In this document: one piece after another, positions 5,825 to 57,125 of the stretch
Position numbering within the stretch: the stretch's first letter is position 1
Layout: every line of letters starts with the position of its first letter
NCBI RefSeq assembly: GCF_000338295.1
Contig: NZ_ANMO01000235.1
Coordinates: forward strand, 26,704 to 90,703
Source of the DNA: Rhodopirellula europaea 6C
GTDB lineage: Bacteria > Planctomycetota > Planctomycetia > Pirellulales > Pirellulaceae
Length of the DNA: 64,000 bases
Reading direction: 5' to 3'
Notes under the pieces: model-generated
Told to the model about the DNA's origin: nothing
The model's database searches: none
Seen by the model: only the letters and a program-made list of their open reading frames with translations
Made by a program: the position numbers and the translations under genes

Positions 5825-5846
5825 TTCGGGCTGCGAGGCGTTGTTC

Positions 5847-5867
5847 AAAAAGGGTGAGAACCCTTTG
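5847..5867 (-). terminator. Candidate intrinsic terminator of mgtE
   Basis: Between the convergent heme dehydrogenase and mgtE genes, AAAGGG at 5849-5854 and CCCTTT at 5861-5866 form a six-pair stem with a six-base loop. Read on the minus strand the hairpin is followed by a short T run, which suits mgtE better than the plus-strand gene. Confidence 0.45.
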
Positions 5868-5878
5868 ACGGGCGAGGG

Positions 5879-7375
5879 CTAGATCAAGCGTTCGAGCATT
5901 GCGGTGGCCAGTCCAAGGACGAGGAAGAAGCCGCACATGTCGGTCACGGTTGTTAGCAACGGGCCACTGGCGACTGCGGGGTCAAACCCGAGTCGTTTCA
6001 GTAGCAATGGCACGGTGCCTCCGATGGAAACGGCGATCAAAGTGTTGGCACACAACGCCACGCCCACCACGAGTCCCAGGTAAGGGTTGCCGTCCCAGAC
6101 AACAGCAACGATTGCGACCAGCAATCCCAGGACCGATCCATTGATCAGTCCGACGCTGATTTCTTTCAGCCACACGCGAATCATTTCGGTGGGGCGAACC
6201 AAGCCGAGTGAAAGTTCTCGCATGCTCACCGCGACGGCTTGGTTGCCGCTGCAACCGCTCATGTCACTGATGATAGGCAAGAACACCGCCAGAGCGATCA
6301 CCTTGGACAACGTGTCTTGATAAACGGCGATCACGCCGGCGGCACCGATGTTGAGCAAGATGTTGATGCTGAGCCAACTGAGCCGTCGTTTTGCACGTTG
6401 CCAAAGCGGCATCGTTCGCAGTTCTTCACCGCCGATGATCCCTTGGCTTTTTAGAAAATCGTTCTCGGCTGCGCGAGTCGATTCGTAGTCCACGGCATTT
6501 CGGTGGACGACGCCCAGCAGTTTGTGGTTGTCGTCGACGACGGGCACGCCAAGGAAATGGTGGGCGTCGAAGAAGTCACGTAGTTCATCCAGCGGCATGC
6601 TGGCGGTGATCGACAACGGGTCGAGGATCATGATGTCCGCAACCGGGTCGGTGCGTTTGGCGAACAACAGGTTTCGCATTGGCAACACGCCAACCAGCTT
6701 TTCGTCGTCATCGGTCAGGTAGGCATACTGAACGTCGTAGTCGCGGAATTCCTCTGCATTTTCAGAGAGTGTCGTGATGACTTCGTGAACCAAGCTCTTC
6801 TGATTGAAACGCAGAATCTCACGAACCAGCAGACCACCGGCTTGGTCATCGCTGTACGCGGCCAATTCCCGAACCGAGGCGGCGTCTTCGGGAGGCAACG
6901 CGCGCAGAATGGATTCGGCTTGATCGTCGTCCAAGTCACCCAGCAAGTCAGCCTGTTCGTCGCTGGTCATCTCCTGGACGATGGCGGCGGCGTCCGAAAC
7001 TTCGAGCGAGTCGACCAATTCGGCGGCTTGCGTTTCGCTGAGGTGACGCAGGATTTCGGCCGCTTCCTCGGCGGGAAGCAAGGTCAAGACGGCGCAGTAA
7101 TGTTCCTCGTCCAAACGGTTCAGCGCCAACGCTTGGTCATTGGGGCCTAGTTTGGAGAGGAAGTTTTCGACGCCGATCGCGTCGCCTGCTTCGGCCAGTT
7201 CGCCCAATCGCTCCCATGGTCGCCAATCCGATTGCTGGGCGGATTCGTCGAGATCAGAAGTCGTGGGTTGTTCGGGGGAGGCGGGGACATTCACTGGTGC
7301 AGGGGGCCGCTTGAAGGTGTAGATTGTCGGATTTGAGTTGCCACGGCTGTTCCTACCGAGACCTCGTTTTGTCAC
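5879..7375 (-). CDS. mgtE: MgtE-type magnesium transporter
   Basis: The protein is about 498 residues from a GTG at 7375, close to the usual MgtE length of 450-480 plus a short extension. In order it has an N-terminal superhelical MgtE-N domain (LNRLDEEHYCAVLTLLPAEEAAEILRHL and following repeats), two CBS domains (AYLTDDDEKLVGVLPMRNLL; GVPVVDDNHKLLGVVHRN), and a C-terminal block of five membrane helices starting near WLSINILLNIGAAGVIAVYQ and including the conserved PIISDMSGCSGNQAVAV pore region. MgtE is a Mg2+ channel gated by Mg2+ binding to the cytoplasmic domains. There is no ATG near the 5' end; a TTG at 7414 is an alternative start. Either choice overlaps the divergent deacylase gene. 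Confidence 0.9.
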   Translation of the reverse strand: MTKRGLGRNSRGNSNPTIYTFKRPPAPVNVPASPEQPTTSDLDESAQQSDWRPWERLGELAEAGDAIGVENFLSKLGPNDQALALNRLDEEHYCAVLTLLPAEEAAEILRHLSETQAAELVDSLEVSDAAAIVQEMTSDEQADLLGDLDDDQAESILRALPPEDAASVRELAAYSDDQAGGLLVREILRFNQKSLVHEVITTLSENAEEFRDYDVQYAYLTDDDEKLVGVLPMRNLLFAKRTDPVADIMILDPLSITASMPLDELRDFFDAHHFLGVPVVDDNHKLLGVVHRNAVDYESTRAAENDFLKSQGIIGGEELRTMPLWQRAKRRLSWLSINILLNIGAAGVIAVYQDTLSKVIALAVFLPIISDMSGCSGNQAVAVSMRELSLGLVRPTEMIRVWLKEISVGLINGSVLGLLVAIVAVVWDGNPYLGLVVGVALCANTLIAVSIGGTVPLLLKRLGFDPAVASGPLLTTVTDMCGFFLVLGLATAMLERLI

Positions 7376-13312: not shown

Positions 13313-15922
13313 ATGAGCGATTCCTCCTCGACTGACCCTGCTTCGAACGACCCATCCGAGGATCCAAACGTTGTGCCCGCTGGCGCGGCAGCCGGCGACG
13401 GAAATTCAGCCGAGGCGAACGCTGGTCCACAACGACCTGTGGAACGTGTTTCGACGGGGCCGTCGGCAAATTCGGAGTACACCGACAAGGATTTGCTGCA
13501 CCTGTCGGACCTCGAGCACGTTCGCGAACGTCCCGGGATGTACATCGGTGACACGACCGTTCGCGGTCTGCACCACCTGGTCTACGAAGTCGTCGACAAC
13601 TCGATCGACGAAGCGATGGCCGGATTCGCGAAATCGGTCAGTGTGATCGTTCACACCGACGGCAGTGTCACGGTCGAGGACGATGGACGTGGGGTTCCTG
13701 TCACCCGTCACGATCAATTGTCAGAAGAACTTGATCGTGAAGTCAGCACGCTCGAGGGCGTGATGACGGTGCTGAAGTTCGGCGGCAAGTTCGAGAAAGG
13801 GGCCTACCAGACTTCGGGCGGTTTGCACGGCGTCGGTGTGACGGTTGTGAACTTCCTGAGCCAATGGGCCGAGGTGGAAGTCAGCCGTGATGGTTCAACT
13901 TGGACTCAAGGCTACGAACGCGGGATTCCCACCGGTCCGATTCAAAAAGGTCGGCCGACAAAGAAGACAGGCACGAAGACCACGTTCAAAGCGGACGGGC
14001 AAATCTTCAGCGTCACCAAATACAACTTCGACACACTTCAAAAACGTCTTCAGGAACTCGCGTTCCTCAACAGTGGCGTTCGCATCAAGTTTCTTGACGA
14101 GCGAAACGGCGAAGGCGGCGACTACCAGTATGACCGCGGGATCGTTGAGTTCGTCGAACACCTCAACCGCGCCAGCGATGTGTTGCACGGAGACGTGATT
14201 CAGTTTGTCGGTGAGAAGGACGGAGTCGAGTATGACATGGCGCTGCAGTACAGCACCGAGTTCACCGAAACCGTTCAGTCTTACGTCAACAACATTCATA
14301 CGATCGAAGGCGGGACGCACGTGTCCGGTTTCCGTTCGGCGTTGACGCGGACGCTGAACAACTATGGCAAAAAAGAAGGCCTGTTCAAGAACACCACGCC
14401 GACCGGCGACGATTTTCGCGAGGGTCTGACGGCGGTGATCAGCGTGCGGGTTCCTCACCCGCAGTTCGAAGGTCAAACGAAGACCAAGCTTGGTAACGGT
14501 GAAGTCGACGGCATCATCACCAGTGGTGTTGGCGAAGCGCTGAACAAGTACCTCGAAGAGAATCCTCGAACGGCCAAAGCGATTGTTCGCAAGGGTTTGC
14601 TCGCCGCCGAGGCTCGCGAAGCGGCTCGCAAAGCCAAGGATCAACTTCGCAAACGAAAAGACGCCCTCGGTGGCGGTGGTTTGCCCGGCAAGCTTCGCGA
14701 TTGCATCTCCAAGAACATGGAAGAGTGCGAAGTCTACCTGGTCGAAGGTGATTCGGCCGGTGGATCGGCCGAAGGCGGGCGGATGCGTGAGTACCAAGCG
14801 ATTCTGCCGCTTCGCGGTAAGATCATCAACGCTTACAAGAGCCGCGAAGACAAGGTGCTGGCCAATGAGGAAGTTCAGTCGATGATTCAAGCGATCGGTA
14901 CCGGAATCGGTGCTGATCAGGATCTTTCGCGACGTCGGTACAACAAAGTCATCATCATGACTGACGCCGACGTCGATGGCAGCCACATTCGTACGTTGCT
15001 GCTTTGTTTCTTCTATCGGCAGATGTATCAACTGGTTGCCGCCGGTCACGTTTATGTGGCTCAGCCGCCGTTGTTCCGGGTCTCGCAGGGCAAGAACCGG
15101 TACTACATCCAGTCCGAAGAAGAGATGAAGGGCCAGTTGCTCGAACGTGGTTTGAATGACACACGATTCGAGACCGAAGACGGACGCAGTGCAGAAGGGG
15201 ACACAATGCGTGCACTTTGCGTCGCGCTTGCATCGATGGAAGATGCAATTCTTGCGTTGGAACGTCGTGGCGTCAGCTTGCGAGTTCACAGCGAACGCTT
15301 CGATCCCGTTACCGGCAAGCTGCCTCCGTTCTTGTTGACGATTTTGGGTGGAGAGCATTGGTTCATGAAGCAATCGGATGTCGAGGCATTCCTTGCTGAA
15401 AACGATGCCACGTTGGATATCGATCAAGCTGAAGAAGAACTGAACGTCGACGGTGAAGAGGTCGTCAAAAGCGATGAGCCCGAAAAGGTGGTCGCTCACT
15501 TGGCCGAGCTTCACGAAGTCCGGACGATCAACAGCGGCTTGAAGGATTTGGAACCACTCGGTTTCGGATTGCAGGATTTGATTCCCGCCGACCGTACCGG
15601 TTCCACCACCGCCAGGTTCGAACTGGTTCGCGGCGAGGACATGCGTCGTCCGCTGGAAGACTTGCGAGAGCTGTTGCCTGAGGTGCGAGCCGCCGGTGAA
15701 AAAGGTTTGCAAGTGACTCGCTTTAAAGGGCTGGGCGAAATGAACGCGGAAGAGCTCCGCGAAACAACGCTCGATCCCGCCAACCGGACGCTGGTGAAGG
15801 TCAACCTGACCGACGCGGGTGCGGCCGACGAAATGTTCCGTTTGTTGATGGGCGACAAAGTCGAACCCCGTCGCGAATTCATCGAAACCCATGCACTTGA
15901 TGTGCGAAACCTGGACGTCTAG
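13313..15922 (+). CDS. gyrB: DNA gyrase subunit B
   Basis: This 869-residue protein is the ATPase subunit of DNA gyrase. The GHKL ATPase domain has [14 protein letters not shown] and [15 protein letters not shown]; the transducer domain has [13 protein letters not shown]; the Toprim domain has [13 protein letters not shown] and [13 protein letters not shown]; and the C-terminal conserved [13 protein letters not shown] follows a long insertion (about residues 620-760) of the kind seen in Gram-negative GyrB. The ATG at 13313 is chosen; about 55 residues of Ser/Pro/Ala-rich sequence precede the conserved start ([24 protein letters not shown]). The open frame extends upstream without a better start. 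The MoxR gene begins 4 bases after the stop. Confidence 0.97.
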
Positions 15923-15926
15923 CACG

Positions 15927-16961
15927 ATGGTCACACCGCCTCCCAGAGACAATAGCGAAGGTTCGGACATCGAAACTGCGGAGGCGTTGATCCAAAGCGT
16001 TGCCCAGGTCAAAGAGCAGGTCGGCCGAATCGTGGTCGGGCAGAGCGATGTGATCGAGCAATTGCTGATCGCGATCTTGGCTCGCGGCCATTGCTTGTTG
16101 GAAGGCGTGCCCGGACTGGCGAAAACGTTGATGGTTCGGACGTTGGCCAGTTCAATGAGTCTGGATTTTCGTCGGATTCAGTTCACACCTGATCTGATGC
16201 CCGGCGACATCACGGGCACGGACATCATCCAAGAAGATCACGAAACCGGACGTCGCGAGATGTTGTTTCGTCCGGGCCCCGTGTTCACGCAAATGCTGTT
16301 GGCCGACGAGATCAACCGGACGCCACCCAAGACGCAGGCAGCGCTGCTGGAAGCGATGCAGGAACATGAGGTCACCGCGGGTGGCAAGACCTACGCTTTG
16401 AAGGAACCGTTCTTTGTTCTTGCGACGCAGAACCCGATCGAGCAAGAAGGGACCTATCCGCTTCCCGAGGCTCAACGCGATCGGTTCTTGTTCCACGTCG
16501 TCGTTGGCTATCCGTCACGCGATCAAGAAGCCGAAATTGTTGAGCGAACCACTTCCGGCGATTTGGCGGATGTTCAGCCCGTCGTCAGTGGCGAAGACAT
16601 TTGCAAGTTTCAGTCCGTGGTTCGTCGGGTCCCATTGCCTGAGCACGTGAAGAACTGGGTGATCGATGCCGTGCGCGCTGCGCGGCCGAACGAACCCGAT
16701 GCGAAGGATTGGGTTAAAGAGTGGATCCAATGGGGGCCCGGCCCGCGAGCGAGTCAACAATTGGTGTTGGCATCCAAGGCCCGTGCGTTATTGCACGGTC
16801 GCACACACGTGACGCTCGAGGACGCACAGGCGTTGGCACTGCCGGTGCTTCGTCACCGAATCGTGCCAACATTTTCTGCCGAGGCGGATGGCATCGCGGT
16901 CGAGGATTTGATCTCGCGATTGGTAGCCGAGCAAAGTGTCGGCACCGCGTCGGTGCTATAG
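15927..16961 (+). CDS. MoxR family AAA+ ATPase
   Basis: The protein has 344 residues. It shows the MoxR pattern: Walker A in [16 protein letters not shown], the [12 protein letters not shown] segment, Walker B in [24 protein letters not shown], sensor 1 in [25 protein letters not shown], and the C-terminal lid near [21 protein letters not shown]. MoxR ATPases act as chaperones that assemble or activate VWA-containing or metal-containing complexes. Usually a DUF58 gene follows; here the next gene is pheA on the other strand, so the partners must be elsewhere. The ATG at 15927 sits 4 bases after the gyrB stop, which suggests read-through transcription from gyrB. An upstream in-frame ATG at 15891 lies inside gyrB and is less likely. 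Confidence 0.93.
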
Positions 16962-17042
16962 AGTTAGATCGGTTCGCCTCGTGGTCTGTCGCAGCTAAAA
17001 GTGAGGGCGTCCGCTACCCTGAAAACAAGTCGTGACCGGCCA

Positions 17043-18134
17043 CTAGCTTTCTACTCGTGCCGCGCGGCCGTAGCTTCCTAGCACATGAGTGTGATGGGTC
17101 GCTGTTTGAAGGTCTTCGATTGCTTTCGCGATCGCGACGTCTTGGCAGTGTCCTGGGAACTCAACGACGAAGAAGTATTCGTTCTTGGTGCCGGGTTGAG
17201 GGAACGACTCGATCCAAGTCAGGTTCAGCTCGTGTCGTTTGAAGATGCCCATCACATCGGCCAATGCGCCGGGTTGGTGGGCAACTTGAAACAGTAGCGT
17301 CGTTTTGTCTTGGCCGGTGGAGGCCGGTTGTTCGTGGCCGAGTACCGCGAATCGGGTCACGTTGTCGCGGTTGTCTTCGATGTTGGCGCCGATGACACGA
17401 AGTCCATGGCGCCGGCCGGCGGCCTCGCTGGCGATCGCGGCGATGCCAGTTTGGGTCGCGGCCAGTTTCGCGGCGGCCGCGGTCGAACTGCATTCGATCA
17501 GTTTCGCGTGAGGCAGATTGTTGGCCAGCCAGACGCGGCACTGAGAGATCGCTTGCGGTTTGCTGTGGACTTCGGTGATGGAGTCGCGATCACACATCGC
17601 GAGCAACTGGTGATGGATTGCGAGTTGCACTTCACCGGTGATCGAGACTTCGCCTTTGGATAGTCTGCCGAAGGTATCGACGACACGGCCGTCAGTGCTG
17701 TTCTCGATTGGTACGATTCCGCCGGCGCAGTCACCTCTGCCAACGGCGTCGAAGACAGCCCCGATCGACGACACTGGCAGCAGGTTGGCGGCGTCGCCGA
17801 AATATGCCAACGCGGCCAAGTGGCTGTAGCTGTCCGGTGGGCCAAGGAACGCATACGTGCCCGGACGAGTGGCTCGCCAGCAAGCCGACGCAACGTGTCG
17901 CAGTATGTTCCGCTGAACTTCGCTGTCTGGCACGGCGGCGTTTGAGTCTTCGTTTCCGGAGCCTGATTGCACCGATCGGTCCACTACGTGATCGATCGAT
18001 GCCAGAGTGCTGGCCCAGTCCGGGTTGGGATTCGACACCGTGTTTTCCATCATCGCTCGGCAGCGTTCGCGCAGCAGATCGAGGATTTGGGTGTCGATCG
18101 ATGCGATCGTATCGCGTGGGTCAGTTGAACTCAT
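17043..18134 (-). CDS. pheA: Prephenate dehydratase with N-terminal chorismate mutase-like segment and C-terminal ACT domain
   Basis: This 363-residue protein catalyses the prephenate to phenylpyruvate step of phenylalanine synthesis. The N-terminal 90 residues resemble an AroQ chorismate mutase (DTIASIDTQILDLLRERCRAMM) but are short, so mutase activity is uncertain. The dehydratase domain has TYAFLGPPDSYSHLAALAYFG, VPIENSTDGRVVDTF, the SKPQAISQCR helix and the catalytic NVTRFAVLG. The ACT domain has HQPGALADVMGIFKRHELNLTWIES, the usual site for feedback control by phenylalanine. The ATG at 18134 precedes the conserved sequence; the frame extends 16 codons upstream without a conserved start. 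An inverted repeat in its leader (18171-18230) could fold in the transcript. Confidence 0.94.
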   Translation of the reverse strand: MSSTDPRDTIASIDTQILDLLRERCRAMMENTVSNPNPDWASTLASIDHVVDRSVQSGSGNEDSNAAVPDSEVQRNILRHVASACWRATRPGTYAFLGPPDSYSHLAALAYFGDAANLLPVSSIGAVFDAVGRGDCAGGIVPIENSTDGRVVDTFGRLSKGEVSITGEVQLAIHHQLLAMCDRDSITEVHSKPQAISQCRVWLANNLPHAKLIECSSTAAAAKLAATQTGIAAIASEAAGRRHGLRVIGANIEDNRDNVTRFAVLGHEQPASTGQDKTTLLFQVAHQPGALADVMGIFKRHELNLTWIESFPQPGTKNEYFFVVEFPGHCQDVAIAKAIEDLQTATHHTHVLGSYGRAARVES

Positions 18135-18170
18135 GGGAGTGAATTTTCGGGCGTGAGCGAAAGGTGACTG

Positions 18171-18230
18171 CCGTTTTGGCAAGGCAGCATTGTGGCATGG
18201 AGCGAAGTTTTGGGTGGGCTGCCAAAACGG
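18171..18230. repeat. Perfect 11-bp inverted repeat with 38-bp spacer
   Basis: CCGTTTTGGCA at 18171-18181 is the exact reverse complement of TGCCAAAACGG at 18220-18230. The arms lie 100-160 bp upstream of the sigma-54-like promoter of dnaK, the usual distance for enhancer-binding sites, and also within the likely leader of pheA on the other strand. Arms flanked by GGCAGC and GCTGCC would allow an alternative, longer hairpin in a pheA transcript. Confidence 0.7.
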
Positions 18231-18331
18231 TTTTGAAGGATTTTTTTAAAACGCGTGGCTGTGTTTTTAGTCGGCGAAACACGTGTTTTTTGATGGTCGT
18301 CTTTTTGGCAAGCACGCTGTGAGAGGGGCTC

Positions 18332-18347
18332 TGGCACAGATCTTGCC
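18332..18347 (+). promoter_or_regulatory. Sigma-54-type (-24/-12) promoter candidate for dnaK
   Basis: TGGCAC at 18332-18337, five bases, then TTGCC at 18343-18347 match the RpoN consensus, with the invariant GG and GC exactly ten bases apart. Transcription would start near 18358, leaving a leader of about 115 bases before the dnaK ATG. Confidence 0.5.
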
Positions 18348-18473
18348 ATATCTGTGGATCCAACCAAAAGGCTGACGAAATGGACCGCTCAGGGGCCGCG
18401 GTCGGCCCGGCGAAATCCAAATTCATATCATTTGACACCCACCATCCCGTTCGGACACAGGAGCTCACGCATC

Positions 18474-20411
18474 ATGGCACAAGGCGAAAAAATCATCGGT
18501 ATCGACCTCGGGACCACCAACAGCGTGGTCGCGATCATGGAAGGTAGCGAGCCAAAAGTTATCCCAAACCCTGAAGGCAACCGGCTGACTCCCAGCGTGG
18601 TCGCTTTCACAGACAAGCAAGAAACCATCGTCGGCGAACCCGCTCGACGTCAAGCCGTCACCAACCCGAAGCGTACCGTGTACTCGGCAAAACGTTTCAT
18701 GGGACGTCGTCACAACGAAGTTCAATCGGAAGAAAAAATGGTGCCCTATGGCATCACCGGTGGAGCTGGCGATTACGTCAAGATTCAAGTTGGCGACAGC
18801 GAGTACACGCCACAAGAAATCTCCGCCAAGGTTCTTCGCAAGTTGAAGGAATCGGCTGAGTCGTACTTGGGGCACAAAGTCAACAAGGCGGTCATCACCG
18901 TTCCCGCATACTTCAACGATGCACAGCGTCAAGCAACCAAAGACGCCGGCCAAATCGCCGGTTTGGAAGTTGCTCGGATCATCAACGAACCAACCGCGGC
19001 TGCACTGGCTTACGGTTTGGACAAGAAGAAGGACGAAAGCATCATCGTCTTCGACTTGGGTGGTGGTACGTTTGACGTTTCGGTTCTGGAAGTTGCTGAT
19101 AGTGGCGACGAAGAACAAGAGAGCCGCGTGTTCCAAGTTGTCAGTACCTCGGGTGACACGCACCTTGGTGGTGATGACTTCGACGAAGCGTTGATCAACC
19201 ACGTTGCCAGCGAATTCCAAAAAGAAAACGGCATCGATCTTCGCAACGACGCGATGGCGTTGCAACGTTTGCAAGAAGCTTGCGAGAAGGCGAAGAAAGA
19301 ACTCAGTACTTTGCCAGAAACCGACATCAACTTGCCTTTTATCACGATGGATGCTTCGGGGCCGAAGCACCTGACGATGAAGATCACTCGATCCAAGTTC
19401 GAAGAGCTGATCGATGCATTGGTGGAGCGTTGCCGTGGGCCAGTCTTGCAAGCATTGAAAGACGCTGGCATGGACCCCAAGGACATCGACGAAGTTGTCT
19501 TGGTCGGTGGTAGCACCCGGGTGCCAAAGGTTCGCGAAGTTGTCAAAAGCATCTTCGGCAAAGACCCTCACCAAGGTGTGAACCCCGACGAAGTGGTTGC
19601 TGTTGGTGCCGCGATCCAAGGCAGTGTCTTGGCTGGTGACCGCAACGATGTGTTGCTGCTCGACGTGACTCCACTGACGCTCGGAATCGAAACCGAAGGT
19701 GGCGTGATGACCGCATTGGTCGAACGCAACACCACGATTCCTGCCGAGAAGAAGAACGTCTTCAGTACCGCCGCGGACAACCAAACCGCCGTGACCGTTC
19801 GAGTGTTCCAAGGGGAACGCAAGATGGCCAACGCGAACCGATTGCTTGCTGAATTCAACCTGGAAGACATTCCTGCTTCACCGCGTGGTGTGCCACAGAT
19901 CGAAGTCAAGTTTGACATCGACCAAAACGGCATTCTGAGTGTTTCGGCGAAGGAACTGAAAACCGGGAAAGAAGCCAACGTCGAGATCAAAGACAGCGGC
20001 GCGTTGTCCGACAGTGACATCGAGCAAATGCAGAAAGACGCGGAAGCCAACGCGGAAGAAGACAAGCGACAATTTGAATTGGTCGAGGCTCGCAACAAGG
20101 TCAACCAACAGGTTTACCAACTTGAGAAGTTGATGGGCGAGAACGACGACAAGTTGTCCGATGACGACAAGGCTCCGATGAACGCTGCGATTGAAAAGGT
20201 CAAGAAAGCCGCGGAAGGCGATGACTTGGCTGAGATCAAAGCTGCATCGGACGAATTGGAAGCCGCCTCGCAAGCGTTTAGCAAGGTCTTGTACGAGAAG
20301 ACTGATGCAGCTGGCGAAGCCGGTGCTGACGCGGCAGGTGCCGCCGGTGCAACCGCGGGCGGCGGAGACGATGACGACGCGATCGACGCGGAGTTTGAAG
20401 TCAAAGAGTGA
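18474..20411 (+). CDS. dnaK: Molecular chaperone DnaK (Hsp70)
   Basis: This 645-residue protein is a full-length DnaK. The nucleotide-binding domain has [16 protein letters not shown], the [20 protein letters not shown] segment, [31 protein letters not shown] and [17 protein letters not shown]; the substrate-binding domain has [19 protein letters not shown]; the C-terminal lid ends in a Gly/Ala/Asp-rich tail with the acidic [10 protein letters not shown] end. It folds and refolds proteins in the cytoplasm with DnaJ and GrpE, neither of which is encoded next to it. The ATG at 18474 has AGGAG ten bases upstream. ClpB, its disaggregation partner, follows after a terminator, so the two may be separately or partly co-transcribed. 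Confidence 0.97.
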
Positions 20412-23447: not shown

Positions 23448-23999
23448 ATGATGATGCAACGTGTTGCCTTGATGTTGACGTTGGTTTGCGTTTCTTCCGT
23501 GGTCGCTTCAGCCGAGGAGAAGCCAACCTTTGATTCGGAACGATCAAAGATCACTTTCATCGGTGCAAAACCTGATGGAAAGCACGAGGGTGGATTCAAG
23601 AAATTCACCGCCGAGGCGACTTTGAATGTGGAAGATCCCAGCAAGGGATCATTGAAGATTGAAATTGATGCCACAAGCCTTTGGTCGGATGCTGATAAAC
23701 TGACCAACCATCTGAAAAACCCTGACTTTTTCGACGTTCGCAAACACCCGAAGATCACATTTGAATCGACCAAAATCGAACATGATGCGTCGCAAGACAA
23801 AGTGAACATCGTTGGTCATTTGACGATGCTTGGTAAGAAGGTGGAGGTCACGATCCCATCGATGCCAAAGCTGACCGAAGACATGTTGGTCTTGGCGGCG
23901 AACTTTGACATTGACCGAACCAAGTGGGGCATGACCTACGGCAAAGGCAAGATCAACGACGAGGTTGCCATCCGCGCGTTGCTCGTTTTCAAACGGTAA
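23448..23999 (+). CDS. YceI family periplasmic protein
   Basis: This 183-residue protein starts with a signal peptide (cleavage near VVASAEEK) after a run of three ATG codons (23448, 23451, 23454), any of which could serve. The mature part follows the YceI lipocalin-like barrel pattern: FDSERSKITFIGAKPDGKHEGGFKKFTAE, then NHLKNPDFFDVRKHPKITFES, then VNIVGHLTMLGKKVEVTIP. YceI proteins bind polyisoprenoids or other amphiphiles in the periplasm. The membrane-protein gene follows after only four bases from the stop to a GTG start, so the two are probably one operon. Confidence 0.9.
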   Translation: MMMQRVALMLTLVCVSSVVASAEEKPTFDSERSKITFIGAKPDGKHEGGFKKFTAEATLNVEDPSKGSLKIEIDATSLWSDADKLTNHLKNPDFFDVRKHPKITFESTKIEHDASQDKVNIVGHLTMLGKKVEVTIPSMPKLTEDMLVLAANFDIDRTKWGMTYGKGKINDEVAIRALLVFKR

Positions 24000-24003
24000 G
24001 ACC

Positions 24004-24909
24004 GTGGAAACTCAAATCCTAATTTGGTGCGTGATAACGCCAGCGATCTTGTCGCTGGCGTTTGTCTTTGGAGCTTGGGCAATTCAGCGGTCCGAGCCGA
24101 ATGCTTGGTCACGACCCCTGCCAGCAGTGCTCGCTGTGATTGGTTGGTGGGTCGCGGTCAGTGCCTGTATGTACGCGAGGCAAGATTTGGATTGGTCCGC
24201 GCTGGAGGCCTGGCAAATTGTATTGGCCCCCATTGGGATCGCGTCGCTGTTGTTGGCTGCGTGTCCGTGCGAAGTGGATTCGTTGCAAACGGCGAGCCCG
24301 CGAACGAGCTTTGGTTTTTGGTGGGTGGTTGCTGGTCTGGGATCCGTGGCGATTGCGATGTGGACCATGCCAACCGGTGATGGATGGACCGATATGTTGC
24401 CGCTTCATCGTCCTTGGATGGCATCCGTGGCGGCGGCATCGCTGATCAACATTTGGTCGTTGGGTCGGATGCGAAGAAGTGGCGCCGCAGCTTGGATCCT
24501 TTGGGTTGGATTGGCTGGTTTGGTGGCACCCACTTTGTTGGCGGCCAGTGCTTACGGTGGTTTGGCGGAATGGATGGTGAGTGCACTGGTTTCGACATTT
24601 GTTTTTGCGGTCGCCGCAGCGCTGATGCCCAACTCAACTATCGGAAGATTGTTTCCGGCCGTGCTTTTTTTGGCGGCGAGCACCACAGCGACGGGGCGGT
24701 TCTACACCTATGAAGATCATCCGACTTGGTTGTACGGATTGATCCTGTTGATGCCAACTTGCATCTCGATCCCGGATGCGTGGCTTCGAGAAAGATCGAC
24801 GTTGATTCGAGTCTCCACGGCGGTCGTTGTCGCGACCCTTTTACTCGCCGTCATCGGATGGTTCTTGCTCGGTGATTCAATGTTTGGTGAACCGACCGAG
24901 GAATGGTGA
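24004..24909 (+). CDS. Polytopic membrane protein of unknown function
   Basis: From a GTG at 24004 the frame gives 301 residues with about nine hydrophobic segments (for example ILIWCVITPAILSLAFVFGAW near the start and VVVATLLLAVIGWFLLG at the end). No charged catalytic motif is evident and I do not recognise the family. The GTG lies four bases after the yceI stop, which fits an operon; the frame also stays open back into yceI, but a start there would overlap needlessly. The protein ends 49 bases before the convergent kinase-pyrophosphorylase gene. Confidence 0.65.
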   Translation: METQILIWCVITPAILSLAFVFGAWAIQRSEPNAWSRPLPAVLAVIGWWVAVSACMYARQDLDWSALEAWQIVLAPIGIASLLLAACPCEVDSLQTASPRTSFGFWWVVAGLGSVAIAMWTMPTGDGWTDMLPLHRPWMASVAAASLINIWSLGRMRRSGAAAWILWVGLAGLVAPTLLAASAYGGLAEWMVSALVSTFVFAVAAALMPNSTIGRLFPAVLFLAASTTATGRFYTYEDHPTWLYGLILLMPTCISIPDAWLRERSTLIRVSTAVVVATLLLAVIGWFLLGDSMFGEPTEEW

Positions 24910-24929: not shown

Positions 24930-24965
24930 AGGGCCACAGGGCCACAGGGACTCAGGACTCAGGAC
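24930..24965. repeat. Short tandem microrepeats between convergent genes
   Basis: The gap after the membrane-protein gene contains GGGCCACA twice in tandem followed by GGG, and then CTCAGGA units in tandem (about two and a half). The second series runs into the stop codon of the minus-strand gene. Confidence 0.6.
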
Positions 24966-27900
24966 TTGTTCCACTTGCAGAGGGCGTTGACGTAGGCGGA
25001 GCCTCCGTCTCGGTTCCAACCGTCGAGTTGGCTCGGTTCTTTCAGTTGTTGACCGCGACGCATGGGCGTCACAATGAAGCGACTATCGATGTCCGAAAGC
25101 GTTGTCATGTCGCCCCATAGTTTTTCAAATTGGGCGACTGGGAACACATCTTCCTGAGCGTGGCCCCAGCGTTTCTTGACCTCTTTGAGTGTGATGTAGG
25201 TTGGCAAGCGAGCGGCCATTTGGCGGACCGCTGAGTCGACTGCCGACGCATCGTTCAACGAATCACGATTCAAGCCGAACGAATCAAGCAATGCATCGAT
25301 GTCGATCCAGGTTGTCATCGAGTTGTAGAACTTTAGACCAAATTCGATGCGTTCGTCCGGCATCGCGAGGCCTTCGACCAGTCGTGGACGACCCGCAACC
25401 AGGGCCAGTCCACCACCGCGGTCTTCCAGGCGGCGCGGGATGACTTCGTAGCTGAGAGTGGCTCCTGACTCGATGTGCAAACCAAACAGGCCTGGGGCAA
25501 CATTGGCACCAAGGGTGTCGATGTTGTGCAGCATCAAATACCGGAGAGACGGTTGGTCTCGCAACATCTGCGAGAGCACGCCATTGCGGAAAAGGTTGGG
25601 GACTTCATACCAGTGACCGACTGGATGCACACACTGCGCCGCGACATTGTCGGTGTAGTCGGAACCTTCTCCCGTTTGTTGGGCCCAATTCGCGATCGCG
25701 GATCGAGCACTTTCTCGCATCTTTTGTTGTTGCTGGTCGAGAACCTGTTGAGCGGTTTCTTCCCACAGGAAATGAAGGTCGCGAACCATCGGGACCATTC
25801 GTAACCCGACGCTTCGTCCGCTGGACACGTACACTGGGCCTTCGTGGCCATAGTTCTCAGTGCGATCCAAGACGGTCCGGATTGCTTCGTCGGTCATCCA
25901 GCTGGTTGTGATGACGTGCGGAATGGTGCCGCCGTTTTGGGACGTTGCAGCACGGTTCTTTGCCAAGTGAATTTCGAGGAAGCTTCGATGCTTTCCGGCG
26001 AACCGATGAAACGGGTGCAGAGCTTTGCAAACGCCTGCACCTTGCGTCCAGCGACTGCCAACGCCCGCCGCTAACGTGACGACGCCGATCTCTCCATTGG
26101 CGATGGCTTTGGAACCAATGTCGGCCAAACGGTCGTCTAGGCCGTCGCGAGTGTCAGTGACATGTTCTTTGGAGACGTCGGTGATTTTAAGGTCACGGGA
26201 AAGTCGGTTGGCTGCCAAGCCAAATTTGCCGGCTCGCATGTCGGCCCGGATCTGCTCATGTTGAGATCGATCAAAGCCGCTTCGTTTCAAAATCGCCGCG
26301 AGTGAGTCATCGCTCGTTTGCGAATCGTCTTTCTTGTCGCTGCTGGCTTTGTCATCCGATGGTAAAACGCTTCGGAGTAGCAATGCCGCGTTCGCTTCTC
26401 GATCATTTGGGTCGCTGCAACGCCGTGAGATGCCCGCCAATTCTTCGCGGGTTTGAGGCGACAACTCTCGCAGGGGCTTGCGAAGCCATTTCGGCATCAT
26501 CAACGCGTAGTACTTCTGCGGTAACACGGCGGACTGAGCCGGTATCAATTCAGCAAACGTTCCGTCGTCATTGATTTGGAAGTCATAGACAACCGGATCC
26601 ATCGCGAATGGCAACGCGGTTTCCAGTTCGCGTTTGACCGTCACCATTTCTTGGCTGAGCCAGTCTTGTGCGTCTTGTTTGATGGTCGGATCAAAGATGA
26701 ATCCCATGCCGCCACCGGACATGCCGCCCAACATCCAAAATCCCCAGAACTGATCGCCGTACTGTTCGCGACAACGCTGGATCATCACGTCCGTGAACCG
26801 GTTGGTTGCCCAAGGAATGATCGATTGCAGGGGGCCTTCGAAGTTCTCGGTGGTCAGCGAACCAAGACGGCAGATGTCGCCTTGTTGCAGTGCCTCAACA
26901 ACCTCGTCGTAGATCCGCATGGCTTCTTGACGGCCGACCCATTGATCACGTCCACGAACGAGATAGTGCTCGGTGACCATCTCCAAGATTGGACCAACGT
27001 TTTGGGCCATCCCACCATGTACAACGACCAGCGAATCCTGCAGTTTTTGTCGAGCTTCGGTGCTGACGCGGTTTTCGCCCAAGACTTCGTGGTCGGGCAT
27101 CAAGCGTCCGCGACTGATTCCGAATTCGGGATCCTCTTCACCGGCAATCTGGCCGCAAATCAGTTTGATGCCGGGCCAGACACCGCCTGAGTCCTGCCAC
27201 CCGCCTCCGCTGCCGCCGATCCATTCACCCAAGATTGCGCGAGCCGCAATCAGGCGTCGGTCGGGTTCGGTCAGCTCGCCCTGCAGCGACTGGATTTGAC
27301 CGGTTGCTCGCATCAGGTTGCTGATGAGCGAACCCAGCAAGTTCGTCGAAACGGCCAGGCGAGAACCTTTGGGGATGTCGTTGATTTTGGAAACCAGTTC
27401 CAAACCTTTGCCACGACCGACGACGCGTTCGAGCAGTGATGCCATGTCGGAGCCGCAACCTTCCAGTCCCGGTGGGACGACACCGGCGGCGATCACAGCG
27501 GCTTTGAGCAACCCGAGGTAGTCCCTCGCAAAGTCAAACATTTCGGCGATGGTGGTCACTTCGACGCTGGCATTGAGGTCAACGCTGACCAACCGAAACA
27601 CCGGTTTGTCGATCACTCGCAAGTAGGTCTCAATCGGCGGTCGAACTTGGTCGTCTCGTCCTCGGACGCCGAGGTCGACCGAGACGTTGATGACGCGAGC
27701 ACCCTCAGGGTAGTCCATTCCCAAAAAGAAGATGTCACTCCACGCCGAGTGAGAAACGTCCATGCGAACGGCGGTGGTTTCTTTTAAAACCGGCGAAAGA
27801 TTCGGGGCGTCTTTGGTTGGCAACAGCTCCTTGCGGATGCGAAGTGGGTGTTCGGCAACATGTCCCAAACGAAACATCCATTGGTTGCCACGAACGGTTC

Positions 27901-28327
27901 GGACGCTGTGGCGAACTTGATCGGCCAGCGTTTGAAAACCTAGTTCGTGGTACGCCGATGCTAACGCACTGGACAATGAATCGCTGGCACCATCGGTCGA
28001 CTGGACTTCTAAAAATTCATCGATCGCTTCTTGAAAGCGTCGTCCGAGCAGATGTTCGTAACCTTCAAAGGGGATGCTGCCGGAACTGGATTGATCCAAA
28101 CGTGGCGGAAGGTGGTACCGATAAATGGCCGACAGAAAAAACAACGCTCGCACACGTTGGTACAAGTTGTCTTCTTGACGCCGAAAGCGATCCAGTTCGG
28201 TGATGTGGTCAAGCAACTCGGATAGCGTGGCGTCTTCTACCAACGATTCGAGCGAGCGATCACGTAGGTCGGCTTGGTCGGTGGTGATCGTTTCGATCAA
28301 TGCGTTCATGGAGCGAACTTCCGGCAT
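24959..28327 (-). CDS. Probable bifunctional GHMP-type sugar kinase / UDPGP-type sugar-1-phosphate pyrophosphorylase
   Basis: The protein has 1122 residues. Residues about 205-600 resemble the fucokinase branch of GHMP kinases: a VDLGVRGRDDQVRPPIETYL segment (217-236), the phosphate loop DIPKGSRLAVSTNLLGSLI (317-335), GSGGGWQDSGG (372-382), and the third motif GGMSGGGMGFIF (534-545). Residues about 740-1100 resemble the UDPGP nucleotidyltransferases: LAAGVGSRWTQGAGVCKAL (752-770) and HNIDTLGANVAPGLFG (934-949), with a Lys at the expected phosphate-binding site. A Ser/Asp-rich linker joins the halves near 650-685. Together these would phosphorylate a free sugar and then make its NDP form, the order opposite to Bacteroides Fkp. 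The start ATG overlaps the upstream TGA (TGATG). Substrate unknown; the kinase call is moderately sure, the UDPGP call likewise. Confidence 0.68.
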   Translation of the reverse strand: MPEVRSMNALIETITTDQADLRDRSLESLVEDATLSELLDHITELDRFRRQEDNLYQRVRALFFLSAIYRYHLPPRLDQSSSGSIPFEGYEHLLGRRFQEAIDEFLEVQSTDGASDSLSSALASAYHELGFQTLADQVRHSVRTVRGNQWMFRLGHVAEHPLRIRKELLPTKDAPNLSPVLKETTAVRMDVSHSAWSDIFFLGMDYPEGARVINVSVDLGVRGRDDQVRPPIETYLRVIDKPVFRLVSVDLNASVEVTTIAEMFDFARDYLGLLKAAVIAAGVVPPGLEGCGSDMASLLERVVGRGKGLELVSKINDIPKGSRLAVSTNLLGSLISNLMRATGQIQSLQGELTEPDRRLIAARAILGEWIGGSGGGWQDSGGVWPGIKLICGQIAGEEDPEFGISRGRLMPDHEVLGENRVSTEARQKLQDSLVVVHGGMAQNVGPILEMVTEHYLVRGRDQWVGRQEAMRIYDEVVEALQQGDICRLGSLTTENFEGPLQSIIPWATNRFTDVMIQRCREQYGDQFWGFWMLGGMSGGGMGFIFDPTIKQDAQDWLSQEMVTVKRELETALPFAMDPVVYDFQINDDGTFAELIPAQSAVLPQKYYALMMPKWLRKPLRELSPQTREELAGISRRCSDPNDREANAALLLRSVLPSDDKASSDKKDDSQTSDDSLAAILKRSGFDRSQHEQIRADMRAGKFGLAANRLSRDLKITDVSKEHVTDTRDGLDDRLADIGSKAIANGEIGVVTLAAGVGSRWTQGAGVCKALHPFHRFAGKHRSFLEIHLAKNRAATSQNGGTIPHVITTSWMTDEAIRTVLDRTENYGHEGPVYVSSGRSVGLRMVPMVRDLHFLWEETAQQVLDQQQQKMRESARSAIANWAQQTGEGSDYTDNVAAQCVHPVGHWYEVPNLFRNGVLSQMLRDQPSLRYLMLHNIDTLGANVAPGLFGLHIESGATLSYEVIPRRLEDRGGGLALVAGRPRLVEGLAMPDERIEFGLKFYNSMTTWIDIDALLDSFGLNRDSLNDASAVDSAVRQMAARLPTYITLKEVKKRWGHAQEDVFPVAQFEKLWGDMTTLSDIDSRFIVTPMRRGQQLKEPSQLDGWNRDGGSAYVNALCKWNKS

Positions 28328-29229
28328 CAGTTGGATCCTTCCAAAGGAGACGATTCGGATGGCGGGTCAATGGTTGCCGCGACTGGATGTTCCGCTCGCG
28401 TGGCGAGAAGTTCAACCAGTTCGGTCAGCAACAGGTCTCGATCGCGTCCGGACAGTCCGATGGCCAGTTGTGCGATCAGAACTCCGTATTGTTCGCCGAT
28501 GTTGTAACGACGTCCCCGAAGTTGATAGGCAAGGTATTTGCCGCGATGAGGAAGTTTGGCCATCGCATCGGATAGCGAGGGCCGTTCCATGCTTTCATCG
28601 GAGGCAACTTCGTGAAGGCATTCCATCACCGCGGATGTCAGGACGTGCATGCCGAAGTAGCCGAGGTAGTAGCCGCTACGCAGGCCCGGCGTGATCAAGG
28701 ATTGTTCCGCGAGCGTGGGCGTTGGTTTTTCGACAACCGTTCGCACGTCATACAAACCATCGAATCGAGGCACGCTGGTTCCAGCGACAATGCCAAAGTA
28801 TGGCAAGCGATGTTCTCGGGTGGACTGGACCGCGGAGACCGGACAGGAGTGATGTTCGGCCATCTCGATCAGTTGTGCCGCGCAACTTTTTGAAGTTGCC
28901 GACAGGTACAGGTGATCGCCAACGAGATGCAGAAAGGGATCGTCTCCGCAAAACGATTCCGCTTGCAGGATTGCGTCGGCGTACCCGAGCGGTCGCTCTT
29001 GATGGACAAATTGAATGTTGCCGAGCGAGCCACCGGCGGCCTTGCGGTAGTTGTCCTCGTCACCGGGCTGGATCACGACGCAGATCTCTTCCACGCCCGC
29101 CGAGAGCGTTTCTTCGACGATCAGCTGTAGAGCTGTTTTTTCCTCGCCCGAACCGTCGACCAGTCGTTGCAGCGGCAGGGTGTTTTGGTTGGGGGCCGCG
29201 GCGGTGATAACCGCTTTTCGAACTCGCAT
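28327..29229 (-). CDS. GalU-like nucleotidyltransferase-fold protein with degenerate nucleotide loop
   Basis: This 300-residue protein keeps the frame of a glucose-1-phosphate nucleotidyltransferase: KAVITAAAP at the start, LIVEETLSAGVEEICVVIQPG, FVHQERPLGYADAILQAESFCGDDPFLHLVGDHLY (with the metal-binding GDH/GDD site), VVEKPTP, and the distal FGMHVLT and RGRRYNIGEQYGVLIAQ. The usual GxGTR loop after KAVI is replaced by APNQNTLPLQ, so the triphosphate-binding Gly and Arg are missing. It may be inactive, regulatory or changed in substrate. It starts at the ATG at 29229, with the family start MRVRKAVITAA; its stop overlaps the next start, so it and the kinase-pyrophosphorylase are probably a complex or a coupled pathway. 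Confidence 0.75.
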   Translation of the reverse strand: MRVRKAVITAAAPNQNTLPLQRLVDGSGEEKTALQLIVEETLSAGVEEICVVIQPGDEDNYRKAAGGSLGNIQFVHQERPLGYADAILQAESFCGDDPFLHLVGDHLYLSATSKSCAAQLIEMAEHHSCPVSAVQSTREHRLPYFGIVAGTSVPRFDGLYDVRTVVEKPTPTLAEQSLITPGLRSGYYLGYFGMHVLTSAVMECLHEVASDESMERPSLSDAMAKLPHRGKYLAYQLRGRRYNIGEQYGVLIAQLAIGLSGRDRDLLLTELVELLATRAEHPVAATIDPPSESSPLEGSN

Positions 29230-29456
29230 GGATCGATCTTTGAGATAAGGAAAAGGCAATGATTAGTTGCATCGACCCACAGAATAGTCGAGGCGTGATC
29301 GGTCGCCACCGGATCGCACCAATTGGGGTGCTCGAGTGCGAAATCCCCCACCGCGGATGCGGTCAGCTATCCTGTTGGCGTTCCGCTTGGAAGGACTGTG
29401 TCGGTTTTTCCGTTGTTGCGGGATTGATTGAGGGTCTCTGAAATCAAAGGTTGGTA

Positions 29457-31286
29457 GTGCGCGTCATCTCCGTTTCTCGCGATGTTGTGGTTTGGTCGTT
29501 TCTCTTGGCATCCTGGATCGGCATCGGACTCCCTTGCCGAGCCGACTCTGGTTCACGGCCCAATGTGTTGGTTGTTTTGACGGATGATCAGGGGTGGGGC
29601 GATCTCAGTCTGCATGGCAATCCCAATTTGCAGACGCCGCACATCGATTCGCTGGCCCGCGATGGAGTTCAAATCAAGAACTTCTACGTGTGTGCGGTTT
29701 GCTCGCCGACTCGCGCAGAATTTTTGACCGGTCGGTATCACACACGATCGGGTGTGTTCAGCACTTCGGCGGGTGGCGAACGATTCGACTTGTCCGAGCG
29801 GACGATCGAAGACGCTTTTCAAGCAGCGGGTTACCGGACCGCGGCGTTCGGAAAATGGCACTCAGGCATGCAGGCTCCGTATCACCCCAACGCTCGCGGG
29901 TTTGATGAGTTCTACGGTTTCTGCAGCGGGCACTGGGGCAACTACTTTTCACCGATGCTGGAACACAACGGCAAGATCGTGAAAGGCGAGGGATTTATCG
30001 TCGATGATTTGACTCAGCATGCGATCGACTTCATGGAACAAGATCGCGAAAATCCTTTCTTCGTGTATTTGCCGCTGAACACGCCGCACTCGCCGATGCA
30101 GGTTCCCGATGAAGATTGGGAAAAGTTTGAAGGCAAAGAGATCGTGCCTGATCCAAGACCGGAGAATGCAAAGAAGGAAGACGTTCAACACACACGAGCG
30201 GCATTGGCTCTTTGTGAGAACATCGACGACAACGTGGGACGCTTGCTCGATGCGTTGGATCGTCTGTCATTGAGTGAGAATACGATTGTCGTGTTCTTCT
30301 GTGACAACGGTCCCAATGGTTCTCGGTTCAATGGCGGATTGAGAGGACGCAAAGGTGCGGTTCACGAAGGCGGTTTGCGTTCTCCCTGTTTGATTCGATA
30401 CCCCGGCAAACTCCCCGCCGGGCAAACGGTCGGCGGAATCGCGGGAGCGATCGATTTGTTTCCGACCTTGGCTGATCTTTGCGACGTCGAGGTTGGTTCC
30501 ACCGCTGGGCCGCTGGATGGCATTTCGCTGGTCGATGGCTTGCGTGACTCGGAATCCGAACCCGCGGAGCGTTTGATCTTCACCGCATGGGGTGGAAAGT
30601 TCAGCGTCCGATCCAATCGGTATCGCTATCACGCCAACGGCGACTTGTTTGACATCGTGGCTGATCCGGGCGAGACACAATCGGTCGCCGAGGAACAGCC
30701 CGTCGCAACGGCACGGTTGAAACGGGCTTTGCAGGATTGGGTGAAAGAGACCAAACCTCGTGATCGGAATCATTCGGAGGAGCAGGTCTTTCCGGTTGGA
30801 TATCCCGATTATCCGTGGACGCAGCTTCCCGCTCGCGATGCACGGGCAACCGGTGAGATTCGTCGCAGCAACCGGTTTCCCAACAGCAGTTACATGACGA
30901 ATTGGCATTCGACCAAGGATGCCATGACCTGGGACGTCGATGTGTTAGCCGGTGGCCAATTTGACGTGGAGGTGTTCTACGCTTGCCCCGAGTCGGCTGT
31001 GGGGACGCAATTGAATTTGGAATGGATGCAGGGCGATGCGACGGCGACAACCGATTCCGTCGTGACCCAAGCGAATCCCTCCGGACCGATTCACTTAGAC
31101 AAAGACCGTTCGAAAAGAGCTGAAAGCGATGAGAAGGATTGGAAGAAAATGTCGCTCGGCCAAATCAATTTGTCCGAGGGCAGGGGACGCCTGTCATTGA
31201 CCTGCCCAAGAATCATGGGCGAGGATGGGGAGACTCGAGGATTGGAGATTCGGCTGATGATGCTGCATCGCGTTCCCGCCGAGTGA
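29457..31286 (+). CDS. Secreted type I sulfatase
   Basis: The protein has 609 residues from a GTG at 29457, which has AAAGG six bases upstream; a TTG at 29451 is too close to that site. A signal peptide covers about 1-29 (WSFLLASWIGIGLP then CRADSG). Metal ligands are in NVLVVLTDDQGWGD, and the formylglycine signature CSPTRAEFLTGR has the Cys at residue 82, to be matured by a sulfatase-modifying enzyme. Further family features are AAFGKWHSG, FVYLPLNTPHSPMQVPDED, and VFFCDNGPNG with the distal Asp-Asn metal site. The C-terminal 120 residues look like an extra beta-rich domain. It hydrolyses sulfate esters, probably of algal polysaccharide, outside the cytoplasm. The substrate is not shown by the sequence. 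Confidence 0.92.
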   Translation: MRVISVSRDVVVWSFLLASWIGIGLPCRADSGSRPNVLVVLTDDQGWGDLSLHGNPNLQTPHIDSLARDGVQIKNFYVCAVCSPTRAEFLTGRYHTRSGVFSTSAGGERFDLSERTIEDAFQAAGYRTAAFGKWHSGMQAPYHPNARGFDEFYGFCSGHWGNYFSPMLEHNGKIVKGEGFIVDDLTQHAIDFMEQDRENPFFVYLPLNTPHSPMQVPDEDWEKFEGKEIVPDPRPENAKKEDVQHTRAALALCENIDDNVGRLLDALDRLSLSENTIVVFFCDNGPNGSRFNGGLRGRKGAVHEGGLRSPCLIRYPGKLPAGQTVGGIAGAIDLFPTLADLCDVEVGSTAGPLDGISLVDGLRDSESEPAERLIFTAWGGKFSVRSNRYRYHANGDLFDIVADPGETQSVAEEQPVATARLKRALQDWVKETKPRDRNHSEEQVFPVGYPDYPWTQLPARDARATGEIRRSNRFPNSSYMTNWHSTKDAMTWDVDVLAGGQFDVEVFYACPESAVGTQLNLEWMQGDATATTDSVVTQANPSGPIHLDKDRSKRAESDEKDWKKMSLGQINLSEGRGRLSLTCPRIMGEDGETRGLEIRLMMLHRVPAE

Positions 31287-56818: not shown

Positions 56819-57125
56819 GTCCAATTCCCTGGAAACTGTTGTCTTAGTTGGGGGAGCGTGCGTCTCCGGAGCCTGTCACGCGAGCATCATGGGGATGACG
56901 CGACTGGCTCGTTGCTGGGTGATGGTTGGATGTTCTCACCCGGAGAATGGTTTCATCCTTCACCGCTCCGAATCCCTCGGTTTCGGTGTAATCGGCATGT
57001 TTGCTTCATTCGCGTCAGCTGATTCATTGCGAGTCAGCTGAAATTTTCGAATTGTTCCTTCCGGCAGCCCATTCAGGATTCCCGGTCAAATCAGCAGGCC
57101 TTGCCAAACCTCTCCACGTTTTCCC
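56819..57125. promoter_or_regulatory. Intergenic region with a 9-bp direct repeat
   Basis: These 307 bases precede the giant surface protein gene on the minus strand. They hold GTCAGCTGA at 57014-57022 and again at 57033-57041 (period 19), each containing the palindrome TCAGCTGA, about 195-225 bases from the start codon. This may be an operator; no clear -10 or -35 was placed. Confidence 0.4.

Follow-up and report, generated by a model that had tools for sequence, protein, structure and literature searches.

A kinase-first sugar kinase and nucleotidyltransferase fusion in Rhodopirellula europaea 6C that probably works like Fkp without being Fkp

What does a sugar-activating enzyme do when its database name accounts for only half of it? 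The question is raised by one gene in a stretch of 64,000 nucleotides from Rhodopirellula europaea 6C (contig NZ_ANMO01000235.1, positions 26,704 to 90,703; hereafter the window), whose product and relatives are usually called "UTP--glucose-1-phosphate uridylyltransferase". A sequence-only reading of the window had proposed that this protein joins a sugar kinase to a sugar-1-phosphate pyrophosphorylase. Here, we describe its domain order, its relationships by predicted fold and sequence, its invariant catalytic residues and a conserved GalU-like gene upstream. From these we infer that, in one chain, the kinase half phosphorylates C1 of a free sugar, likely a fucose-like one, and the UDPGP half likely forms a nucleoside diphosphate (NDP) sugar, with feedback from the GalU-like partner, a combination that we consider on balance somewhat probable.

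Domain architecture of the fusion protein

The gene is a single unbroken open reading frame encoding 1122 residues, and comparison with homologues suggests that its true start lies a few codons inside, perhaps at 28309. The layout is as follows.

24959..28327, minus strand: fusion gene, Fkp-type GHMP sugar kinase followed by UDPGP-type nucleotidyltransferase, 1122 residues
27872..28327, minus strand: N-terminal helical region, residues ~1-152
26543..27880, minus strand: GHMP kinase domain, residues ~150-595, nearest to the Fkp fucokinase
24962..26320, minus strand: UDPGP-type nucleotidyltransferase domain, residues ~670-1122, from PF01704 and predicted fold

This bears out the sequence-only reading, which had placed a GHMP kinase first and a UDPGP enzyme second: an Fkp-type kinase occupies residues ~1-600 and PF01704 residues ~670-1122, the reverse of the order in Fkp. 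The motifs it had picked out (the phosphate loop, GSGGGWQD, GGMSGGG, LAAGVGSRW and HNIDTLGA) were all found at the residues assigned to them. It was also right that the pyrophosphorylase belongs to another family than that of Fkp, PF07959, which has no match in the R. europaea genome at E<=0.1. In the fusion itself, Pfam at E<=1 gives the C-terminal UDPGP and no PF07959, and the protein scores 61.2 bits against PRK13412, in the kinase part only, where the equivalog requires at least 721. Given the absence of PF07959 and the opposite domain order, the fusion family is not Fkp.

Structural alignment of the predicted fusion with full-length Fkp (9iit, 5yys) begins at Fkp residue 482-485, so that the N-terminal helices may correspond, judging from the aligned range, to the Fkp linker; profile comparison of the two (hhalign) gave a probability of 0.4% and did not show this correspondence. 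The genome holds one copy of the fusion, its sole other match there being a weak one to a UDPGP protein. Among the database matches listed, the closest relative is 96% identical and named Rhodopirellula baltica, and we found no characterised member of the family.

The kinase half

The N-terminal half has the GHMP fold. Its conservation was assessed in 212 sequences (the window, 120 listed matches, 76 loci and 15 members of a phylum sample), of which 210 are distinct, a set weighted to close relatives with a lowest identity of 43%. Arg188, Asp190, Trp196, Asp198, Gly321, Ser327, Glu368, Gly376, Trp377, Gln378 and Asp379 are identical in 210/210. Among them, by alignment, are the counterparts of seven catalytic and sugar-contact residues of Fkp (Arg592, Trp599, Asp601, Ser719, Glu751, Gln761 and Asp762), whose roles are those given in excerpts of PMC11982464. 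Two motifs of this half are listed here.

27191..27214, minus strand: GSGGGWQD motif, residues 372-379, in which Asp379 is the aligned counterpart of Asp762, the general base of Fkp, and Gln378 that of Gln761 (roles from excerpts of PMC11982464)
27344..27376, minus strand: non-canonical phosphate loop IPKGSRLAVST, residues 318-328

Two features of this site weigh against the reaction proposed here. Instead of a glycine-rich phosphate loop of the GSGLGTSS type, all 210 homologues carry GSRLAVST, with Arg323 and Ala325 in place of the loop glycines, and Thr602 of Fkp is replaced by Ile199, again in 210/210. A joint alignment of 43 of the 210 family members with 61 Fkp-type kinases (60 of 120 listed, plus one Fkp) had Arg and Ala in 43/43 of the former versus Gly at both positions in 61/61 of the latter.

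A loop altered in every homologue would suit a protein with a single activity, such as the UDP-glucose pyrophosphorylase (UGPase) of the database name, whose kinase half serves as a non-catalytic sensor. Against this, the kinase general base, the Arg, the Glu, the metal Ser and all Fkp side-chain sugar contacts except Thr602 are invariant, which is unexpected in a dead kinase; taken with the genome comparisons below, we think this explanation unlikely. Alternatively, the kinase might draw its phosphate from ADP, pyrophosphate or polyphosphate, for example, instead of from ATP, with Arg323 making up for the altered loop; this would fit a site in which Arg323 and Ala325 are fixed in 210/210 and the remaining residues are retained. 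We are aware of no GHMP kinase that uses a donor of this kind. Since galactokinases accept Ser at the second loop Gly, only Arg323 is odd in the loop, and we regard another donor as very improbable.

By sequence, the nearest kinase relative is Fkp. A tree of 20 fusion-family, 20 Fkp-type and 20 HddA-like kinases, for which the program gave a long-branch warning, joined the fusion-family and Fkp-type kinases (100/99) and resolved the former as one clade on a long stem (100/100) and the latter as a separate clade (94/88); an earlier tree with 7 more HddA-like rows left their joint placement open. From these clades, the fusion kinase is likely a sister lineage to the Fkp kinases and not nested among those sampled, and it groups with them instead of with the WcbL/HddA-type heptokinases. 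Two phylum-sample members (L011 and L012), at 43-44% identity and paired on a long branch, keep the altered loop and would be useful outgroups for the family. In the kinase-half search, the named matches among the 120 listed were mostly partial fusion copies, and rarer stand-alone kinases may exist.

This kinship, together with the retained Trp, Asp, Gln and Asp sugar contacts, raises the possibility that the protein is a functional Fkp, salvaging L-fucose (or D-arabinose) to the GDP-sugar through a different pyrophosphorylase domain. The change of Thr602 to Ile199 speaks against it, and we judge it rather unlikely for the further reasons given below.

The transferase half

The UDPGP half reaches 35.6 bits to PF01704, where the Pfam gathering score is 22. 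Its two principal motifs are listed here.

26048..26074, minus strand: LAAGVGSRW, residues 752-760, which we take to be the triphosphate loop, with invariant Lys768 after the motif
25505..25528, minus strand: HNIDTLGA, residues 934-941, the counterpart by alignment of SNxDNLGA in UGPase

Leu752, Gly755, Arg759, Trp760, Lys768, Ser835, Arg843, Pro902, Gly904, His905 and Glu908 are identical in 210/210 homologues, and Asn935, Asp937, Gly940, Glu961, Asp969 and Gly971 in 209/210, with one gap. The transferase core (GxG.R loop, Lys and Asp) is thus present as Gly755, Arg759, Lys768 and Asp937. Lys1096 and Lys999 were considered as the UGPase sugar-phosphate Lys and dropped, position 999 being Lys in only 5/210 and the C-terminal alignment being poor. 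Because both active sites are conserved across orthologues and the N-terminal half is a GHMP kinase, neither a different N-terminal fold nor a loss of catalytic residues in both halves overturns the idea of a bifunctional enzyme.

The position aligned with a Gln that presumably contacts the uracil side in UDPGP enzymes is occupied by Arg in 154 of the 210 homologues, by Lys in 31 and by Gln in 11, and being mostly Arg or Lys it does not allow the nucleotide base to be called. An Arg or Lys there would permit another base, as the GDP-sugar salvage outlined above would need, whereas UDPGP relatives are mostly UTP users.

The GalU-like partner

Directly upstream of the fusion, on the same strand and overlapping it by 1 base (TGATG), lies a second gene.

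28327..29259, minus strand: partner gene, GalU-like, 310 residues, predicted catalytically disabled; start perhaps at 29229, from homologues

Of 81 loci, namely the 80 best of at least 563 relatives of the fusion plus the window, 73 have a GalU-like partner on the same strand no more than 1.6 kb upstream. Upstream sequence of 700 bp or longer is available for 75 of these top-scoring loci; 70 of them contain the partner, and the remaining 5 hold no GalU-like partner anywhere in the locus. Simple gene calling made it the immediate neighbour in 58/77 loci, and the separate phylum sample had it in 10/16 loci, one of these 16 having no upstream sequence. No fusion of partner and enzyme was seen in the frames of loci L003-L019; a long frame in L014 was rejected as one, being an open frame that overlaps a separate partner gene.

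The partner model has a predicted local distance difference test (pLDDT) score of 89.8, and its nearest structure is B. subtilis YngB (template modelling (TM) score 0.70-0.76). The partner scores 88 bits to GalU (TIGR01099; 76 in the genome search), under the equivalog cut-off of 326.8, which is harsh here since 1/241 genomes of the host's bacterial family reaches it. We therefore compared 58 partners with 12 GalU-type proteins of the same family, drawn from its 46 GalU-type genomes, 11 of the 12 also falling under that cut-off. The GxGTR Arg is present in 21/58 partners versus 11/12 controls, the PK Lys in 0/58 versus 12/12, and the second Asp in 18/58 versus 12/12; these we take to be the catalytic Arg, Lys and second metal Asp of GalU/RmlA, a set not conserved in the partners. 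Q87, G92, D115 and E177-K178-P179 are kept in 58/58. As the conserved base-side and sugar-phosphate-side residues are retained while the PK Lys is gone and the Arg and second Asp usually are, the partner is predicted to be non-catalytic in the manner of GMPPA; this is how a protein would be expected to look if it could still bind an NDP-sugar but made it poorly or not at all. As a further point on the other side, the lost Lys lies beside a 3-column deletion with K41 nearby (Lys in 48/58), and residual activity is possible.

Distribution and other sugar-activation genes

The fusion occurs in 123/241 genomes and 27/68 genera of the host's family, including 10/12 other members of its own genus. 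In an even draw of 294 genomes across the phylum, 41 match at E<=0.001, many through ordinary UDPGP or Fkp-type proteins, and the fusion family itself is in 16 besides R. europaea. A contig scan of species genomes yielded the at least 563 confirmed relatives, whose best 80 are mostly 57-62% identical; by record title alone, and with many being metagenome bins, they come from Planctomycetota, Verrucomicrobiota, Chloroflexota, Acidobacteriota, Armatimonadota and others. Such high identity across a patchy range suggests that the fusion spread by horizontal transfer. Three loci titled Candidatus Kuenenia, Candidatus Nealsonbacteria and Akkermansia muciniphila (L050, L077 and L092) carry it at ~59-60% identity, possibly on mis-binned contigs.

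Some genome comparisons would fit an enzyme with a pyrophosphorylase activity only. The best GalU match of the R. europaea genome is the partner, at 76 bits, with the next at 42. Across the 241 genomes, GalU-type proteins (E<=1e-40) occur in 46 and the module in 123, and 9 have both (Fisher p 2.4e-6); within one genus of 28 genomes (g254), the 4 GalU-type genomes lack the module, which 22/24 others have. This exclusion vanishes at genus level, where 8 genera share both versus ~9 expected (27 and 23 of 68). Two members of the host's own genus (G445 and G451) have neither, and all 14 genomes of another genus (g267; G494-G507) hold a stand-alone UDPGP above 400 bits to PF01704, beside the module in 9/14. 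The next listed family member scores 176 bits, and this stand-alone UDPGP was possibly acquired by transfer.

For the salvage of fucose by an Fkp equivalent, the lack of PF07959 in the R. europaea genome is favourable, and its gmd gene, for de novo GDP-fucose, is not. Fkp (PF07959 at E<=1e-10) is found in 7/241 genomes and the module in all 7, so that Fkp co-occurs with the module; replacement of Fkp by it was accordingly rejected. In one genome (G439; locus L130), a true Fkp, at 1036 bits against PRK13412, and the module are separated by ~8.5 kb (3880-6807 and 15330-18647, both minus strand), showing that both fusion types can share a genome. The GalU and Fkp counts neither fix a sugar nor show a replacement. 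Elsewhere in the R. europaea genome are one further UDPGP protein, probably of the UDP-N-acetylglucosamine type by its motifs, and two GHMP_C matches, one of them IspE-like and under that family's cut-off.

Gene neighbourhood

Besides the partner, no conserved neighbour was found in most of the 81 loci. Three clusters come next, each at 8 loci: sulfatases, phosphoglycerate kinase and, on the strand opposite the partner, an antisense-like cluster in which the one member scanned was without a Pfam match at E<=0.01. In the window the first is represented by the following gene.

29451-31286, plus strand: sulfatase gene, divergent from the pair, PF00884, E 8e-56

The sequence-only reading had proposed a role in cell-surface or sulfated polysaccharide synthesis; with sulfatases of this cluster near only 8/81 loci, the window included, the link of the sulfatase to the module is weak. 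At the 8 phosphoglycerate kinase loci (L047, L049, L051-L054, L062 and L083; one member scanned), several titled Akkermansiaceae or Verrucomicrobiales, the pair is divergent beside that cluster. Two other genes of the window were noted.

23965-24909, plus strand: apparently hydrophobic protein of 314 residues, lying downstream of a YceI gene; Pfam gives nothing better than E 0.2
52256-56824, minus strand: likely surface protein of 1522 residues that carries an SdrD_B domain and matches DUF11 six times

Proposed mechanism and comparison with known systems

In the mechanism that we prefer, Asp379, with Arg188, Glu368 and Ser327 acting like Fkp Asp762, Arg592, Glu751 and Ser719, would phosphorylate, in an ATP-dependent step, the C1 of a sugar that Trp196, Asp198 and Gln378 hold in place. 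The UDPGP half, through Gly755/757, Arg759, Lys768, Asp937 and others, would then couple the sugar-1-phosphate to a nucleoside triphosphate and release pyrophosphate. By analogy with the action of GMPPA on GMPPB, the partner might bind the product and so exert feedback on the enzyme; it would sense product because the GalU residues for the base and sugar phosphate are kept and those for the triphosphate and metal are not. The sequence-only reading stands in its architecture, order, families and conserved sites, and had overlooked the non-standard kinase loop and the GalU-like partner.

Among known systems, Fkp/FKGP (PRK13412) is the most similar: it has an Fkp-type GHMP kinase and a sugar-1-phosphate nucleotidyltransferase in one chain, the same kinase catalytic residues and a kinase that groups with this one. 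In contrast, the fusion has the reversed order, PF01704 instead of PF07959, loop Arg/Ala instead of Gly/Gly and usually a GalU-like partner gene. With the PF01704 enzymes (UGPase, UAP and UDP-sugar pyrophosphorylase) it shares the predicted fold and core residues of its C-terminal half, but its transferase follows a kinase, has an insertion near 850-895, mostly Arg or Lys at the uracil-side Gln, and GHW for GHGD. The zebrafish glucuronokinase/putative pyrophosphorylase DrGKUP likewise joins a GHMP sugar-1-kinase to a nucleotidyltransferase, which according to excerpts of PMC3938481 is N-terminal and of the short bacterial type. The predicted pairing of a non-catalytic nucleotidyltransferase relative with an active one recalls GMPPA/GMPPB; in excerpts of PMC11228364 GMPPA is a paralogue of its enzyme, whereas here a GalU-like partner accompanies a UDPGP-like enzyme.

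In excerpts of PMC12732313 (2025), FKPs are defined by PF07959 plus COG2605 and PRK13412, and one fusion event is favoured for all known FKPs; its main text contains no mention of Planctomyc-, Verrucomicrob- or UDP. No prior description of a kinase-first/UDPGP fusion was found in the open-licence literature, judged by titles and abstract starts. The family probably works like Fkp although it is not Fkp, and it likely evolved apart from it, out of a kinase from a sister lineage and a transferase from a different family. A bolder version is doubtful: that bacteria of several phyla have a second, independently assembled fusion of this order, with a remodelled, Arg-containing loop through which the kinase works from an unusual donor or in an unusual direction, and with feedback control by a dead GalU subunit dedicated to it, as a bacterial counterpart of GMPPA-GMPPB.

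A separate assembly would test how kinase-pyrophosphorylase fusions arise. A dead GalU partner, if true, would be a clear case of pseudo-enzyme feedback in bacteria, and a one-enzyme route from free sugar to NDP-sugar, if true, would be useful for glycan synthesis. Since the database name covers half of the protein, the kinase step may go unrecorded in metabolic reconstructions of Planctomycetota and Verrucomicrobiota.

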